From assembly GCA_001769655.1 (NCBI GenBank), contig MEPC01000002.1, positions 1 to 64,000 of the forward strand: DNA of 64,000 nt, in the 5' to 3' direction. This DNA is from Bacteroidetes bacterium RIFCSPLOWO2_12_FULL_37_12. Its GTDB lineage: Bacteria > Bacteroidota > Bacteroidia > 2-12-FULL-37-12. The position numbers and the translations under genes were made by a program. This document shows, piece by piece, positions 10,527 through 62,510 of this stretch. The notes below the pieces were generated by a model. The model was given only the letters and a program-made list of their open reading frames with translations, was not told where the DNA came from and did no database searches. Position 1 is the first letter of the stretch. The number at the start of each line of letters is the position of its first letter.

Positions 10527-11027
10527 CTAATTCCCGGCTTTCACCTTTCCAATAAAAACAGCTCCCACCATTGCTGTAAGGAAAAGCACTGCCGATAATT
10601 CGAAGGGTAAGAGAAAGTCATTAAATAAAGTCATTCCTAAATTTTTTACGAGACCTATATCGGGATTTGGTAAGACATGAGCAGTTTTATCAACTGTTTT
10701 TCTGAAAACTGCGGTTAATACCAATAAAAGTAAACCGGAGGTGATCACTCCTGAAAGCTTAAGCCATAAGGGCTTTGCCGGTTCAGATTCTTTATTCAGA
10801 TTCATCAACATTATTACAAAAAGAAAAAGCACCATGATAGCGCCTGCATAAACAATAACATGTACCACCGCAATGAATTGTGCATTTAATAACACAAAGT
10901 GCCCGGCAATACTGAAGAATGTCATTACAAGAAATAATACACTGTGAACCGGATTCTTAGCAGTTATTACAAGGATTGCGAAAATGACAGCAAGAATTGA
11001 TAATGAAAAAAAGGCGATTTCAATCAT
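10527..11027 (-). CDS. nuoJ: NADH-quinone oxidoreductase subunit J
   Basis: 166 residues with five hydrophobic helices. The conserved NuoJ stretch VIVYAGAIMVLFLFVIMLMN carries the flexible glycine helix that changes shape during turnover. Usual order J-K-L follows. A nested pair of mobile repeats separates it from nuoI upstream, so about 290 bp of non-coding DNA interrupts the operon; whether nuoJKLN is read from an upstream promoter or from one within the repeats cannot be told. Confidence 0.93.
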   Translation of the reverse strand: MIEIAFFSLSILAVIFAILVITAKNPVHSVLFLVMTFFSIAGHFVLLNAQFIAVVHVIVYAGAIMVLFLFVIMLMNLNKESEPAKPLWLKLSGVITSGLLLLVLTAVFRKTVDKTAHVLPNPDIGLVKNLGMTLFNDFLLPFELSAVLFLTAMVGAVFIGKVKAGN

Positions 11028-11047
11028 TGGATTTATAATTAATTGTA

Positions 11048-11208
11048 GTTACTGTTCAGTCCAAAATGAAAAAATAAAATTTTGCCACTGATTACACGGA
11101 TTAATGTTATAAAAAATCTTAAAATCGTGTTTAATCAGTGTAATCAGTGGCTAAATTTTTTTTCTTGTTCAATTAGTGGTTTAATTAATTTGGATACTGA
11201 ACAGTAAC
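11048..11208. mobile_element. Family 1 short inverted-repeat element, copy 1 (between nuoI and nuoJ)
   Basis: About 161 bp with terminal inverted repeats GTTACTGTTCAGT / ACTGAACAGTAAC and an inner inverted repeat of the type CCACTGATTACACGG... / ...AGTGTAATCAGTGG. It has no coding capacity. The 8-bp target duplication TAATTGTA is at 11040-11047 on the left and at 11306-11313 on the right, after the nested family 2 element. Other copies lie at 23048, 39938 and 55779. Confidence 0.9.
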
Positions 11209-11210
11209 TA

Positions 11211-11305
11211 TACTGTAAACGGAGCAAATTTCAGCAAAAATCTAAATAATCATATAACCATTTAACAATCATCCAGAGTACACGAAATTTATACCGATTG
11301 CAGTA
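11211..11305. mobile_element. Family 2 short inverted-repeat element, copy A, nested in the family 1 target duplication
   Basis: 95 bp with ends TACTGTAAACGG... and ...CCGATTGCAGTA, flanked by TA on both sides (11209-11210 and 11306-11307). It resembles a TA-targeting (Tc1/mariner or IS630-like) MITE. Its position inside the right-hand TAATTGTA of the family 1 copy shows it arrived second. Other copies are at 18347-18457 (inverted) and 22117-22279. Confidence 0.85.
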
Positions 11306-11316
11306 TAATTGTATTA

Positions 11317-11841
11317 CTATAGTATTACTACCTCCCTTTTGTCTTGTACGGTTTTTACTGGTTCCAGCAATTTATCTTTTCCATACACGAGATTCCCACG
11401 GAAAAAGCTTGATAAAGCCATTTCTCCTTCCAAATATATGGCTTGTTTAGGACATGCTTCTTCGCAGAATCCGCAAAAAATACATCGTAACATATTAATT
11501 TCGTACCGGGAAGCATATTTTTCTTCTCTGTATAAATGTTCTTCACCGGATTTTCTTTCAGCGGCATCCATCGTAATTGCTTCTGCGGGACAAGCCAATG
11601 CGCATAATCCGCAGGCAGTACAACGTTCTGCGCCATTTTCGTCACGTTTCAATACCTGCAATCCTCTGTAAACCGGGCTGAATTTTCGTTTTTCATCTGG
11701 AAATTGAATGGTGGTTTTCCTGCCGAATAAATGCCGGATAGTGACCAACAGCCCTCCTAAAATGGCAGGAATGTATAACCTTTCCATTAAGTTCATTTTT
11801 TTCTGAACCACTACTTTAGAACGGGATGTTAAGAGTTTCAT
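11317..11841 (-). CDS. nuoI: NADH-quinone oxidoreductase subunit I (2x4Fe-4S ferredoxin-like)
   Basis: 174 residues. Two CxxCxxCxxxCP motifs, CTACGLCALACP and CIFCGFCEEACP, bind the N6a and N6b clusters that pass electrons towards the quinone site. The N-terminal amphipathic segment docks onto the membrane arm. Start ATG 11841 is contiguous with the heptad array that fills the nuoH-nuoI spacer. The gene is followed by the nested repeat elements instead of directly by nuoJ. Confidence 0.95.
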   Translation of the reverse strand: MKLLTSRSKVVVQKKMNLMERLYIPAILGGLLVTIRHLFGRKTTIQFPDEKRKFSPVYRGLQVLKRDENGAERCTACGLCALACPAEAITMDAAERKSGEEHLYREEKYASRYEINMLRCIFCGFCEEACPKQAIYLEGEMALSSFFRGNLVYGKDKLLEPVKTVQDKREVVIL

Positions 11842-13968: not shown

Positions 13969-14006
13969 TAAATATTTATAGAAAAAAAAAGTGAATTTTT
14001 ACCTTA

Positions 14007-14093
14007 GGGCACTTCTAAAAATTCTATCTTTTATTTCCTCCCTCTTTATCTCCCTCCAAAGGGAGACATTAGGTTGAATTTTTAGAAGTGCCC
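14007..14093. mobile_element. Family 3 short inverted-repeat element, copy 1
   Basis: 87 bp with ends GGGCACTTCTAAAAATTC and its reverse complement, flanked by TTA on both sides (14004-14006 and 14094-14096). The interior holds CCTCCCTCTTTATCTCCCTCC-like sequence. The right-hand TTA, read on the minus strand, is the TAA stop codon of yidD. Copy 2 is at 40220-40308 in the opposite orientation. Confidence 0.85.
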
Positions 14094-14306
14094 TTACGGT
14101 ACTGGATCATATCCTGAGCCACCCCAGGGATGACAAGAAGCGAAACGTTTTAAGGTTAACCAGAATCCATAGAATACACCATGCTTTTTAAGCGCCTCTA
14201 TTCCATATTGAGAACAAGTAGGAGTGTAGCGGCAGGAAGAGGGCAGAAGTGGAGAAATAAGGTGTTTATAGAATTTGATTAATAATATGAGAAAGTTTGT
14301 GAACAT
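14094..14306 (-). CDS. yidD: Membrane protein insertion efficiency factor YidD
   Basis: About 70 residues from ATG 14306 (an upstream TTG at 14318 is less likely). The family signature is seen: [30 protein letters not shown] followed by [13 protein letters not shown]. YidD assists YidC-dependent membrane protein insertion. It directly follows rnpA, the conserved rnpA-yidD pair, but rpmH is absent upstream and yidC downstream. The stop codon is the TAA at the boundary of the family 3 element. Confidence 0.92.
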
Positions 14307-18346: not shown

Positions 18347-18457
18347 TACTGCAATCGGAATAAATTTCGTGTACTATGAATGATTGTTATATGGTTAAAT
18401 GGTTAAATGGATATAGAGTTATTTAGATTTATGCTGAAATTTGCTCCGTTTACAGTA
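18347..18457. mobile_element. Family 2 short inverted-repeat element, copy B
   Basis: 111 bp, in inverted orientation to copy A: starts TACTGCAATCGG and ends CCGTTTACAGTA. TA follows on the right (18458-18459), while the left flank has TG, so one side of the TA pair has probably mutated. The interior has a repeated word ATGGTTAA. Confidence 0.8.
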
Positions 18458-22116: not shown

Positions 22117-22279
22117 TGCTACAATCGGTATAAATTTTCGTTTAACTCTGTTCATTATTCCATTGTTCCATTGTTTCATTGTTGTGCTGAAATCATGGAG
22201 TCAATTAACAATGAAACAATGAAACAATAGAACAAAATGTCACTATAGACATTTGCTGAAATTTGTTCCGATTACAGTA
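22117..22279. mobile_element. Family 2 short inverted-repeat element, copy C, enlarged by 8-nt words
   Basis: 163 bp with ends TGCTACAATCGG and CCGATTACAGTA, flanked by TA on both sides. The interior differs from copies A and B: it carries tandem 8-nt words (ATTGTTCC/ATTGTTTC) and their inverted complement (AACAATGA), giving a hairpin. The remaining family 2 sequence (GCTGAAATTTG near the right end) is conserved. Confidence 0.75.
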
Positions 22280-23047: not shown

Positions 23048-23207
23048 GTAACTGTTTAGTCAAAGTTTAAAAAATACAATTTAGCCACAGATTACACGGA
23101 TTAATATTATAAAAAACGTAAAACCATTTTTAATCAGTGTAATCCGTGACTAAATTTTTTTTCTTGTTCAATTAGTGGTTTAATTAATTTGGATACTGAA
23201 CAGTAAC
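23048..23207. mobile_element. Family 1 short inverted-repeat element, copy 2
   Basis: 160 bp, ends GTAACTGTTTAGTC and ATACTGAACAGTAAC, with inner inverted repeat TTAGCCACAGATTACACGG / GTGTAATCCGTGACTAA. No exact 8-bp duplication is seen at the edges; AATTGGAA follows on the right and the same word occurs 12 bp before the left end inside a small 7-nt array (ATTAGAA, ATTGGAA, ATTAGAA), so the left duplication may have been changed by repeat expansion. Confidence 0.8.
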
Positions 23208-37078: not shown

Positions 37079-37100
37079 GGCTATGAAGGGGAGTGCAATG

Positions 37101-37108
37101 CAAACTTA
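37101..37108 (-). promoter_or_regulatory. -7 box before murQ
   Basis: Minus-strand TAAGTTTG, 22 bp before the murQ start and within a GCAAACTTACATGAAATTTT block shared with the mnmH and pyrophosphatase upstream regions. Confidence 0.55.
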
Positions 37109-37125
37109 CATGAAATTTTTTTATT

Positions 37126-37629
37126 TCATCTATACCCAATCCTCCTTCTGTTTTCCCAGTTTTCCTTTTCATTCTTTTCATCCATCAGGTATTTTAGCGC
37201 TTCATAAACATCTTTGAATTGACGGTTATAGCGGTTTTCCATCTCTTTTAACTTTTCAGTTAAGTCCTTGTGGGAAAGAGCGTAATGGCGCATAATTACA
37301 AAAGCTCTCATTACAGCTATGTTTACCTGAATTGCCTTCTTACTTCTTAATACGCTTGAAAGCATTGAAACGCCCTGTTCGGTAAAGGCAAAGGGTAAAG
37401 CCCCGCCAAAATAACTTTTAGAAGGTATCACAATTTGTGATACCATTTCGCTTACCTCATTATCTGAAAGTACAAACACAAAGTCATTCGGGAATCGATC
37501 AATATTACGCTTGACGGCTTGCTTTAAAGCCCTGTTTTCGACTTTATACAGTTTAGCGAGGTCAAAATCAAGCATGACTTTTTGCCCTCTTATTTCATGG
37601 ATTTTTGTTTGGATGGATTGTAAGTGCAT
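37126..37629 (-). CDS. ORF6N domain-containing protein
   Basis: 167 residues. The N-terminal ORF6N domain is clear: HEIRGQKVMLDFDLAKLYKVENRALKQAVKRNIDRFPNDFVF, then the FAFTEQGVSMLSSVLRSKKAIQVNIAVMRAFV stretch. The domain is common in phage and mobile-element proteins and in chromosomal relatives and probably binds DNA. The C-terminus is a charged coiled coil (KEMENRYNRQFKDVYEALKYL). It has no phage neighbours here, so it is a single accessory gene. Role unknown. Confidence 0.8.
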   Translation of the reverse strand: MHLQSIQTKIHEIRGQKVMLDFDLAKLYKVENRALKQAVKRNIDRFPNDFVFVLSDNEVSEMVSQIVIPSKSYFGGALPFAFTEQGVSMLSSVLRSKKAIQVNIAVMRAFVIMRHYALSHKDLTEKLKEMENRYNRQFKDVYEALKYLMDEKNEKENWENRRRIGYR

Positions 37630-39937: not shown

Positions 39938-40099
39938 GTTTCTTTTCAGTCAAAACAAAAAAAATACAATTTAGCCACAGATTACACGGATTAATGTTAT
40001 AAAAAATCTTGAAACCGTTTTTAATCAGTGTAATCAGTGGCTAAATATTTTTTTCTTGTTCAATTTGTGGTTTAATTAATTTAGGCACTGAACAGTAAC
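39938..40099. mobile_element. Family 1 short inverted-repeat element, copy 3
   Basis: 162 bp. The left end GTTTCTTTTCAGTC is a decayed version of GTTACTGTTCAGTC; the right end is CACTGAACAGTAAC. It is flanked on both sides by the perfect 8-bp duplication CAAATATT (39930-39937 and 40100-40107). It sits between mnmE and tRNA-Val. Confidence 0.9.
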
Positions 40100-40212: not shown

Positions 40213-40219
40213 CGGTTAA

Positions 40220-40308
40220 GGGTACTTCTAAAAATTCAACCAAATGCCTCCCTCTGGAGGGAGATAAAGAGGGAGGAAAATAAAAAGATTGAATTTTTAG
40301 AAGTGCCC
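40220..40308. mobile_element. Family 3 short inverted-repeat element, copy 2
   Basis: 89 bp, ends GGGTACTTCTAAAAATTC and GAATTTTTAGAAGTGCCC, in the opposite orientation to copy 1. It is flanked by TTAA on both sides (40216-40219, 40309-40312). The right-hand TTA, read on the minus strand, is the stop codon of the PorT-like gene. Confidence 0.85.
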
Positions 40309-41007
40309 TTAATCTTTCAACAAATCCTTTAATGGCTTCAGTTGCTTCATCCGCGATCCCTTATTTCCAAAATTTGAAAGACGAAAAGTAAGAGCTACAA
40401 TCCAGATACTATGTTTCACCATAGGTCCTCCTTCTACCGAGTTCATATCCGTAATCCCATATTCATATTTACCTTCAATCGTAAAATCTTCTACAAAGGC
40501 ACCAGCGCCTGCCTGTAATCCAAAACTGTAATTTTTTAATCCTTCCTGCAAGGTAAATGTTTTTAAATTTCTGCCGGTAATTTCCCTTGCGGCAATTAAA
40601 TAACCTGGTACTCCGCCGATTTTGAATGTCAATCCCCTGTCGCCTTTAAAACGGTCTATGATATTAAATACTGCTAAGAGTGGCACATCAATAAAATGCA
40701 GTTTCAAACGGTATAAAAATCCATCAAGGTTTCTTTCCGCCCCTTTTTGACTGTAGAGAATATCGGTTTGAAATGCAAACATTCTGTCTAACAACGCATT
40801 TTTTGTCCGGAAGGTGAAATTTATATACATCCCGGCATGATAAAACATATTCATCTCGTAATTTCTTCGTTCAAAATTCGGGTCCCGTAATAAATTGGAA
40901 AAATTTGGTCCCCCTCTCACCCCATAATAGAAAAAAAAATTTTGGGAGAATAGGATTGAACTATTGAAAAATAGTTGTATAACTAAAATTAATTGAAATT
41001 TTTTCAA
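40309..41007 (-). CDS. PorT-like outer membrane beta-barrel protein
   Basis: 232 residues with a signal peptide (MKKFQLILVIQLFFNSSILFSQ). The mature part starts with the FYYGVRGGPNFSNLL strand typical of the Bacteroidota PorT/OMP_b-brl_2 group and continues as an eight-stranded small barrel. PorT itself is linked to type IX secretion, but the wider family is functionally diverse, so that role is only a possibility. The stop codon is the TAA at the edge of the family 3 element, followed by GGGCAC element sequence. Confidence 0.75.
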   Translation of the reverse strand: MKKFQLILVIQLFFNSSILFSQNFFFYYGVRGGPNFSNLLRDPNFERRNYEMNMFYHAGMYINFTFRTKNALLDRMFAFQTDILYSQKGAERNLDGFLYRLKLHFIDVPLLAVFNIIDRFKGDRGLTFKIGGVPGYLIAAREITGRNLKTFTLQEGLKNYSFGLQAGAGAFVEDFTIEGKYEYGITDMNSVEGGPMVKHSIWIVALTFRLSNFGNKGSRMKQLKPLKDLLKD

Positions 41008-41101
41008 AATGATTGCTATTATATGCCTGTCATCTTTCCATTTCAGCGGAAAAATACTGAAATTTGCCGGAACTTAACAAATTTAATACTGTTTAAGAAA
41101 A

Positions 41102-41192
41102 TGGGTATAAGGGTATAGGGTATAGGGTATAAGGGCGAAATTAGTGTATTTCCCTTATACCATTATACCTTTATACCCCTATACCCTTTTTA
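41102..41192. repeat. Hairpin of GGGTATA words, copy 1
   Basis: The left arm is four GGGTATA(A) units, the right arm TATACCC units, with a GCGAAATTAGTGTATTTCCC-like centre. A second copy in the same orientation lies at 41921-42000; together they bracket the gene at 41217-41903. Confidence 0.8.
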
Positions 41193-41216
41193 CAAAAGTA
41201 TAAATCGCAAAGAAAT

Positions 41217-41903: not shown

Positions 41904-41920
41904 TTGAATACTAAAAGAAA

Positions 41921-42000
41921 ATGGGTATAAGGTATAAGGGTATAGGGTATAAAGGCGTAATTATAGTATTTCCCCTATACCATTATACCCCTATACCATT
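41921..42000. repeat. Hairpin of GGGTATA words, copy 2
   Basis: Same words and centre (GGCGTAATTATAGTATTTCCC-like) and same orientation as copy 1, between the dehydrogenase-like gene and the convergent selD. It could fold as a terminator-like stem for both. Confidence 0.8.
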
Positions 42001-42023
42001 TTTACTAATTTCCGCAAACTCAT

Positions 42024-44280: not shown

Positions 44281-44284
44281 GGGG

Positions 44285-44371
44285 CAAACTTACATGAATT
44301 TTTTATATTACACATAAACGCGATAAAAAAGTATCGGTGTATGGGTGTGTCGTCGTATCGGGGTAAATAAA
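44285..44371. repeat. Promoter-bearing repeat upstream of mnmH, copy 1
   Basis: About 87 bp that is homologous to 62401-62488: begins CAAACTTACATGAA (minus-strand TAAGTTTG -7 box at 44285-44292), then ATTACA..TAA.CG.GATAAAAA and a tract of 8-nt words TATCGGTG/TATGGGTG. No coding potential. Confidence 0.75.
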
Positions 44372-51245: not shown

Positions 51246-51264
51246 CTCCTTTGAAAAAAACAAA

Positions 51265-51407
51265 TAATAGAACAATAGAACAATAGAACAATAGAACATT
51301 TGAACAATTGAATTAAGAACTTAAACATAGTTCAACATTCACTATTCAAATGTTCTATTGTTCTATTGTTCTATTGTTCAACTGTTCTACTGTTCTATGG
51401 TTCAAAA
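51265..51407. repeat. Large hairpin of ATAGAACA words
   Basis: The left arm is tandem 8-nt ATAGAACA units, the right arm is CTATTGTT/CTACTGTT units, separated by about 30 bp. The arms pair over about 50 bp. The rest of 51246-51675 is very AT-rich, with a smaller inverted repeat and no gene. Confidence 0.8.
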
Positions 51408-55778: not shown

Positions 55779-55940
55779 GTTACTGTTCAGTACCCACGAA
55801 ATAAACCATAAATTGAATAAGAAAATAAATCTTAGCCACGGATTACACGGATTAAAAATGGTGGTAAGATTTTTTTTATAACATTAATCCGTGTAATCCG
55901 TGGCTAAATTTTATTTTTTCATCTTGGACTGAACAGTAAC
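55779..55940. mobile_element. Family 1 short inverted-repeat element, copy 4
   Basis: 162 bp, inverted relative to copies 1-3. Ends GTTACTGTTCAGTACC and GGACTGAACAGTAAC, inner palindrome TTAGCCACGGATTACACGG / CCGTGTAATCCGTGGCTAA. The 8-bp target duplication TCATAATC flanks it perfectly (55771-55778 and 55941-55948). It separates the hybrid kinase from the PAS gene. Confidence 0.93.
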
Positions 55941-55983: not shown

Positions 55984-57966
55984 ATGAAAAAAGAACAAAC
56001 CAATAAAATGCTACCACACTTGCAAGACCATTTGGCAGCAATTGTTCAATCTTCTGATGATGCCATTATCAGTAAATCAATGGATGGGACGATTGTCTAT
56101 TGGAATTTGGGAGCCGAAAAAATATTCGGATATAAATCTGATGAAGTAGTTGGAAAATCAATTAATCTCCTTGCTCTGCATAAAACGGATGAGCACAAAG
56201 AGATAGTGGAAAAATATAAACGAGGAGAGAAATTAGAGCACTACGAAACCAAAAGAATTAAGAAAGATGGTTCAACAATAGAAGTATCTTTAACTGTATC
56301 TCCGATTTTCGACCATCAACACAAAACCGTTGGCTTTTCCACCATCGCCAGAGACATTACAGGGAAGTCACTCTATTCCAAATATGCAAGAAGTTTGATT
56401 GAAGCCAGCTTAGACCCGCTTGTTACCATCAGCGCTGATGGGAAAATTACAGATGTAAATGAAGCGTCCGTTAAAGTTACAGGTGTATCACGAGAAAAAC
56501 TGATAGGCACGGACTTTTCAAATTATTTTACAGAACCGGAAAAAGCCAGGGAAGGATACAGGCAGGTATTTGAAAAAGGATTTGTTGCAGATTATCCGCT
56601 AACTATCAAAAATAAAAATGGAAAATTAACCGATGTGTTATACAATGCTTCCGTTTATAAGGATGATAAGGGAAATGTTCTTGGAGTGTTTGCTGCCGCC
56701 CGTGACATCACCAAACAAAAGGAAGTAGAAAATCAAATTCAGAAAATACAAACCTATACAAGGATGCTCATTGAAACATCTCTTGACCCTCAAATCACAA
56801 AAGGAACAGATGGACTTATAAAAGATGTAAACGAAGCGACAATTTTGGTAACGGGAGTGCCGCGCGAAAAAATTATAGGAACTCATTTCCCAAACTATTT
56901 CACCGAGCCGCAAAATGCAGAAAGGGCATATCAGGAGGCATTTGCAAAAGGAGTGGTAAGAAATATTCCATTAGCCATCAAACATACTTCAGGAAAAATT
57001 ACAGATGTGCTTTACAATGCAACTGTATATAAAGATGAGTCAGGAAATGTTCAGGGTGTGTTTGCCTCAGCCAGAGACATTACCGATAGAATTAAAGGCG
57101 AAGAAGAAATAAAGAAAAGTCAGGCATACACACGAAGTTTAATTGAAGCCAGTTTAGACCCGCTTGTTACCATCAGCGCTGATGGAAAAATATTGGATGT
57201 GAATGAAGCATCCGTTAAAGTTACGGGTGTAACCCGTGAAAAACTAATTAGCACTGACTTTTCAAATTATTTCACTGAACCTCATAAAGCAAGGGAAGGT
57301 TATCAGCAGGTTTTTGAAAAAGGATTTGTTGCAGATTACCCGCTCACCATCAAACATAAAAACGGAAATTTAACGGATGTGTTATATAATGCTTCCGTTT
57401 ATAAAGATGAAAAGGGAAATGTGCTGGGAGTATTTGCCGCCGCCCGCGATGTAACGGAGCAAAAACAAACATCACAATATGCAAGAAGTTTGATTGAAGC
57501 ATCACTTGACCCTTTAGTTACCATCAGTGCCGATGGAAAAATCTTGGATGTGAACGAGGCATCGGTGAAAGTTACGGGTATTTCCCGTGAAAAACTGATT
57601 GGTACTGATTTTTCAAATTATTTTACTGAACCCAATAAAGCGCGTGAAGGTTATCAGCAGGTTTTTGAAAAAGGATTTGTTTCCGATTATCCGCTCACCA
57701 TCAAGCATACAAGCAATAAATTAACTGATGTATTGTACAATGCTTCTGTTTATAAAGATGACAAAGGAAATGTGCTGGGTGTTTTTGCCGCTGCCCGTGA
57801 TATAACTGCCCAAAAACAATTAGCAGAAAGAGAAGTAGCAGAAAGAGAAAAAGAGTTGCAAAGAATTGAAGAGTTAGAAAGATTCCGAAAATTAACTGTT
57901 GGCAGAGAATTAAAAATGGTTGAGTTAAAAAAAGAAATTGAAGAATTAAATAAGAAAGCCAATTAA
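55984..57966 (+). CDS. Cytosolic sensor protein of five tandem PAS domains
   Basis: 660 residues, no membrane segment and no kinase domain. PAS 1 (about 12-133) is divergent. PAS 2 (136-256), PAS 4 (382-497) and PAS 5 (498-610) are almost the same sequence (SLIEASLDPLVTISADGKI, FSNYFTEP.KAREGY.QVFEKGF, DVLYNASVYKD), and PAS 3 is a related variant. DNA is also very similar, so the duplication is recent. The C-terminus is a helical signalling coil (ERFRKLTVGRELKMVELKKEIEELNKK). It presumably passes its signal to the kinase encoded 28 bp downstream. Confidence 0.88.
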   Translation: MKKEQTNKMLPHLQDHLAAIVQSSDDAIISKSMDGTIVYWNLGAEKIFGYKSDEVVGKSINLLALHKTDEHKEIVEKYKRGEKLEHYETKRIKKDGSTIEVSLTVSPIFDHQHKTVGFSTIARDITGKSLYSKYARSLIEASLDPLVTISADGKITDVNEASVKVTGVSREKLIGTDFSNYFTEPEKAREGYRQVFEKGFVADYPLTIKNKNGKLTDVLYNASVYKDDKGNVLGVFAAARDITKQKEVENQIQKIQTYTRMLIETSLDPQITKGTDGLIKDVNEATILVTGVPREKIIGTHFPNYFTEPQNAERAYQEAFAKGVVRNIPLAIKHTSGKITDVLYNATVYKDESGNVQGVFASARDITDRIKGEEEIKKSQAYTRSLIEASLDPLVTISADGKILDVNEASVKVTGVTREKLISTDFSNYFTEPHKAREGYQQVFEKGFVADYPLTIKHKNGNLTDVLYNASVYKDEKGNVLGVFAAARDVTEQKQTSQYARSLIEASLDPLVTISADGKILDVNEASVKVTGISREKLIGTDFSNYFTEPNKAREGYQQVFEKGFVSDYPLTIKHTSNKLTDVLYNASVYKDDKGNVLGVFAAARDITAQKQLAEREVAEREKELQRIEELERFRKLTVGRELKMVELKKEIEELNKKAN

Positions 57967-62378: not shown

Positions 62379-62400
62379 GTTTATGTTATTTTTGGGGACG

Positions 62401-62488
62401 CAAACTTACATGAAATTTTTTGAATTACATATTTACGTGATAAAAATTGTATCGGTGTATGGGTGTGCCGGAGTGTCGGAGTGAATAA
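62401..62488. repeat. Promoter-bearing repeat upstream of the fused pyrophosphatase, copy 2
   Basis: Homologous to 44285-44371. The minus-strand -7 box TAAGTTTG is at 62401-62408, 22 bp before the pump start. The distal part is TATCGGTG, TATGGGTG, TGCCGGAG, TGTCGGAG, an 8-nt array. Confidence 0.75.
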
Positions 62489-62510
62489 ACTGCATAATAC
62501 CAGTATAAAC

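Follow-up and report, generated by a model that had tools for sequence, protein, structure and literature searches.

Nested insertion of two miniature inverted-repeat elements in the nuoI–nuoJ spacer of a Bacteroidia genome

Two successive insertions between nuoI and nuoJ

We analyzed a 64,000-nucleotide window of Bacteroidetes bacterium RIFCSPLOWO2_12_FULL_37_12 (assembly GCA_001769655.1, contig MEPC01000002.1, positions 1 to 64,000 of the forward strand), the source of a 3.9-Mb Bacteroidia draft genome of 43 contigs, and focused on the spacer between the respiratory genes nuoI and nuoJ. Two non-autonomous miniature inverted-repeat transposable elements (MITEs) most probably inserted into this spacer in sequence, first an element of family 1 (element 1) and then an element of family 2 (element 2); we assign this reading a probability of about 0.9. 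The ends, copy numbers, and duplication lengths of the two families, their independence from each other, and the restored spacer were observed directly, with copy sites in the genome examined as stretches around the copies.

The order of the insertions can be read because both target-site duplications (TSDs) are intact at this site. The 8 bp beyond element 2 are an exact copy of TAATTGTA, the octamer preceding element 1, whereas only two of the eight positions immediately to the right of element 1 agree with it, which indicates that element 1 came first. If element 2 had arrived first and element 1 had inserted beside it, the gene order would be identical, but TATACTGT, the octamer to the right of element 1, should repeat TAATTGTA; given the 2/8 agreement there and the 8/8 agreement past element 2, which two random 8-mers from the window would reach with a chance of ~6e-5, this order is very unlikely. 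On re-reading the window, the layout of both elements and their flanking repeats at 11040–11313 was as given in a preliminary description of this DNA.

The direct adjacency of the two elements, which lie 2 bp apart, could also reflect a single composite mobile unit in which the TA on either side of element 2 is incidental. Among the 36 full family 1 copies and the ~20 family 2 copies examined, no other pair was found within 400 bp, and the two families differ in both their ends and the length of their duplications. Because the families never lie this close at other examined sites, the pair is not one unit. The refuting condition named in the preliminary description, joint occurrence of the two elements at other sites, was not seen, and we regard a composite origin as exceedingly improbable.

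The restored spacer is consistent with the insertion of element 1 followed by element 2. Without both elements and their duplications the spacer would measure 23 bp, which falls inside the range found between nuoI and nuoJ in 93 relatives (−4 to 126 bp, median 30) and thereby supports two insertions. Most relatives carrying both genes are only ~55–70% identical in NuoI/NuoJ, the nearest belonging to the same class only, and a scan of genome contigs for NuoJ gave matches of 52–67% identity. Weighing against two successive insertions, no empty or singly occupied nuoI–nuoJ site from a close relative was found among the genomes compared.

Family 1: copies, target duplications, and placement

Family 1 comprises ~49 copies, as judged from 98 genomic matches to the core-arm pattern of its hairpin, which each copy contains twice; the reversed form does not occur. 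A DNA search of the genome returned 40 scored places, nearly all of which were family 1. The ends of element 1 are GTWACTGTTCAGT, and its 13-bp end had 73 matches in the genome with at most one mismatch, versus 3 for a reversed control.

With the ends fixed, an exact 8-bp TSD was present in 14 of the 36 full copies, while every other length from 4 to 12 was seen in 0–1 copies; four further copies agreed at seven of eight positions. A flank match of at least 7/8 was thus found in 50% of copies, compared with 2.6% when left and right flanks were shuffled. The targets of these 18 well-duplicated copies are A+T-rich, with A at positions 2–3 and T towards positions 6–7, and TAATTGTA broadly agrees with this preference. 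The element 1 copy in the window is 99% identical to the copies at C42:198574 and C39:1960, both with a perfect 8-bp TSD, which indicates that family 1 moved recently. Nesting was also seen elsewhere: at C1:1227–1535 (G000, L107), a family-1-type element lies within a family 1 copy with CAAAAAATC on either side (8 bp plus one matching base), and the uninterrupted site seen in sibling copies provides an empty-site comparison within the genome.

By a mechanical call of open reading frames (ORFs), none of the 36 family 1 copies lies inside a gene; the neighboring genes are co-directional at 25 copies, often with a very short spacer, divergent at 10, and convergent at 1. The nuo site is typical of this placement. 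Family 1 had no match in plasmids. Its end occurred in 98 stretches of IMG/VR contigs, none of which aligned with family 1 among those examined, and one IMG/VR contig carrying the core motif (L334) matched the family 1 hairpin only. Family 1 has the features of a MITE, being short, non-coding, and multi-copy, with inverted ends and a TSD of fixed length.

Assignment of family 1 to a transposase family

Taken together, the ends and the duplication length make an IS66-type MITE the best reading of family 1. IS66-family transposases are annotated at plasmid loci in Acaryochloris, Geobacillus (ISGka4), Deinococcus, and Anoxybacillus, and the ends of these loci are GTTACTGCCCAG, GTAACTATTCAG, GTAACTGCTCAG, and GTAACTATTCAG, respectively, with 8-bp duplications. 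In the end search behind these four cases, run without a shuffled control, locus L411 gave GTTACTGCCCAGGCT with CTTCATTC, L414 (ISGka4) gave GTAACTATTCAGCCC with AACTCGTC, and L415 gave GTAACTGCTCAGCAC with TAAAAATC, and L416 was a fourth, weaker case of the same end type. The single-ORF subgroup of IS66 (ISGka4, ISBst12-like) shares GTWACTGnYCAG ends and exact 8-bp duplications with family 1; unlike its members, family 1 is 161 bp long and has a hairpin interior in place of a transposase gene. Duplications of 8 bp have also been described for the IS66 elements ISPpa5a and ISPpa7 (PMC3281130).

A MITE usually shares its ends with an autonomous element of the same genome, although this is not a strict requirement, and many MITEs retain nothing but the ends of their parent. 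For family 1, matching ends on other elements, transposase-linked or not, all came from genomes other than the source. One of these is a second Bacteroidia genome (G152), in which exact copies of GTTACTGTTCAGT were located near contig ends and abutting the stop codon of an ORF, the tail of which, STSRKQNQNIWNALTQALEGKPIKFAC, resembles an IS66 C-terminus. This tail aligned with a Neochlamydia IS66 fragment that is itself ~45–64% identical to annotated IS66 transposases. The ends of the putative parent insertion sequence (IS) of G152 were found only at contig ends, and its body was not assembled. A further genome (G158) contains ~152-bp MITEs that combine family 1 ends with an unrelated interior, with an 8-bp duplication at one copy.

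Several observations weigh against an IS66 origin. Two of the six IS66 loci yielded no ends by the search used, the alignment of the G152 ORF tail with the Neochlamydia fragment carries little weight on its own (E = 2), and no IS66 transposase (PF03050) was found in the assembly, although a 43-contig draft could miss a collapsed IS. At the level of mechanism, the ends and duplications of family 1 point to a DDE element rather than to a REP/RAYT system (a RAYT tyrosine transposase with a tagged hairpin), which was considered for the hairpin core, no RAYT search having been made.

Family 2

Family 2 comprises ~20 copies of 87–163 bp with common ends TACTGYAAWCGG...AAATTTC, and at nearly every site TA stands on either side. 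The end had 34 matches in the genome versus 0 for the control, and both families recur far more often than chance would give. Short inverted-repeat elements flanked by TA on both sides are the pattern of IS630/Tc1-mariner-type MITEs, which, like family 2, are small and non-coding with inverted ends. From the TA target alone, family 2 is therefore a putative IS630/Tc1-mariner-type MITE. Against this assignment, no IS630 transposase (DDE_3, PF13358) was found in the assembly; likewise, no transposase was seen beside family-2-like ends in the source genome or in other genomes.

Hairpins with arms of short tandem words (GGGTATAA, AACAATAG, CATTGTT) were observed in the window at 41095–41196, 41915–42008, 51263–51398, and 22117–22279, and resemble the interiors of family 1 and family 2 in build. 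A third small inverted-repeat element with ends AGGGCACTTCTAAAAATTC, probably another MITE family, is present at 14006–14094 and 40217–40310 of the window in opposite orientations.

Proposed sequence of events and features of the locus

Taken in order, a family 1 MITE would first have inserted at TAATTGTA in the 23-bp spacer, duplicating 8 bp, probably moved in trans by an IS66-family transposase (single-ORF, ISGka4/ISBst12-like), as its ends and duplications suggest. Later, a TA-duplicating family 2 MITE of the IS630/Tc1-mariner type would have inserted at the TA opening the right-hand copy. Both steps, without the transposase families, had been proposed in the preliminary description, and they agree with the 8-bp rule of family 1 and the TA flanks of family 2 found across the genome. 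Neither of the two non-coding elements breaks a gene, as both fall between the stop codon of one gene and the start codon of the next; nuoI and nuoJ, earlier described as unsplit, are both intact. The gene run that includes them also contains NuoG-, NuoH-, NuoK-, NuoL-, and NuoN-like genes. The coordinates of these features and of other copies in the window are listed in Table 1.

Table 1. Features of the nested insert, further copies of both families, and flanking genes (positions in the 64,000-nucleotide window)
Feature	Position	Strand	Remark
Left copy of the 8-bp TSD of element 1 (TAATTGTA)	11040..11047	.	8 bp, the rule of the family
Element 1 (family 1), 161-bp non-coding MITE, probably IS66-type	11048..11208	.	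Multi-copy, ends, duplications
Left-hand terminal inverted repeat, element 1 (GTTACTGTTCAGT)	11048..11060	+	13 bp
Internal hairpin of element 1, first arm (core GCCACTGATTACACGGATTAA)	11069..11104	+	
Internal hairpin of element 1, second arm (core TTAATCAGTGTAATCAGTGGC)	11131..11166	+	
Right-hand terminal inverted repeat, element 1	11196..11208	-	
Left TA of the duplication of element 2	11209..11210	.	Probably the first 2 bases of the right-hand TAATTGTA originally
Element 2 (family 2), 95-bp non-coding MITE, TA target, ends TACTGTAAACGGAGCAAATTTC / TACTGCAATCGGTATAAATTTC	11211..11305	.	
Right copy of TAATTGTA, separated from element 1 by element 2	11306..11313	.	Its first TA is the second TA of element 2
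nuoI–nuoJ spacer	11028..11316	-	Now 289 bp; 23 bp (TAATACAATTAATTATAAATCCA, coding strand) minus both elements and duplications
nuoI	11317..11841	-	Intact; NCBIfam-confirmed
nuoJ	10527..11027	-	Intact; NCBIfam-confirmed
Family 1 copy	23048..23207	.	
Family 1 copy	39938..40099	.	TSD CAAATATT
Family 1 copy, inverted relative to 11048–11208	55779..55940	.	TSD GATTATGA in the orientation of the element
Family 2 copy, 111 bp	18347..18457	.	
Family 2 copy, 163-bp long form	22117..22279	.	

Possible effect on nuo expression

With both elements in place, a long segment of structured RNA would be added ahead of nuoJ in the nuo transcript; our default reading from the sequence is that the insertions are close to neutral for the operon. 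Alternatively, the insert could be a retained regulatory device, the hairpins of which act as a terminator or as a processing or stability element tuning nuoJ–N relative to the upstream nuo genes. The inserted RNA is predicted to fold at −85 kcal/mol versus −42 kcal/mol for shuffled sequences (z −11), and the 18 pairs of the core stem hardly vary from copy to copy, both of which favor such a device; however, conservation in young copies can come from common descent. Covariation was considered as a sign of RNA function for the family 1 stem and rejected, since compensatory pair changes were absent. In addition, Rfam gave nothing above the gathering threshold, no Bacteroidota-type promoter (TTG/TAnnTTTG) was present in the region, and family 1 copies are spread over many unrelated spacers. 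A terminator scan was likewise empty, although its 8-nt loop limit cannot detect the 26-nt loop of this hairpin. We therefore consider a regulatory role unlikely and retain near-neutral insertion as the default.

A separate idea, that the nuoI–nuoJ spacer is a general collector of hairpins, was rejected, as a folding z-score below −3 was found in only 5 of 44 spacers of at least 40 bp.

Comparison with known elements

The nested pair is clean but ordinary, its elements being of a type already known. The BOX, RUP, and SPRITE repeats of Streptococcus pneumoniae are small repeats nested in one another in intergenic DNA (PMC10969869); such clusters resemble the nuo insert in their nesting but belong to other families, and at the nuo site both duplications are intact. 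The Chunjie MITE of Geobacter uraniireducens differs in being a single insertion with other ends in another host. Within Bacteroidota, MITECca01 of Cardinium is a high-copy, mostly intergenic MITE derived from IS982, the parent IS of which is still present (PMC9769881); family 1 is similarly high-copy and mostly intergenic but differs from it in the IS982 origin and the retained parent IS. The literature searches made turned up no description of an IS66-linked MITE from Bacteroidota, and family 1 is apparently an undescribed IS66-type MITE family in Bacteroidia. The nuo spacer offers a clear record of two-step insertion in a respiratory operon. MITEs of this kind accumulate between co-directional genes, including within operons, so that any influence on transcript polarity can be tested directly.

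The hairpin core across Bacteroidota

The part of family 1 that could lead to less familiar biology is its common hairpin core, AATCNGTGTAATCNGTGGC, located at 11084–11151 of the window, which also recurs in other Bacteroidota. The exact core pattern was present in 9 genomes of a 247-genome sample of the phylum, most of the others belonging to one genus (g58), and the reversed control gave 0. In genome G553 (loci L417–L427), the core lies inside repeats with ATGACTRTCCG-type ends, which, as read by eye, are unlike the IS66-type ends; in other Bacteroidota (G568, locus L428; loci L212–L232), it occurs alone or in tandem. In the copies of the source genome, the N position of AATCNGTGTAATCNGTGGC is A, C, or T but not G on this strand, and variation in the stem is almost confined to two positions per arm, which lie opposite each other. 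A literature search with the core sequence as a string found no paper. We raise, as a tentative and rather doubtful possibility, that the family 1 core (GCCACNGATTACACNGATTAA ... TTAATCNGTGTAATCNGTGGC) forms a repeat module in its own right, present across Bacteroidota and adopted by MITEs with unrelated ends; if so, this would suggest that the core aids the spread or the tolerance of non-autonomous elements.

Other repeats in the window

A repeat starting with GCAAACTTACATGAA is present in three copies (37100–37140, 44284–44371, and 62400–62489), two of which continue with GTATCGGTGTATGGGTGTG. Finally, positions 56382–57776 contain four direct repeats of ~300 bp at a spacing of 351–372 bp, which probably correspond to domains repeated within a coding gene.
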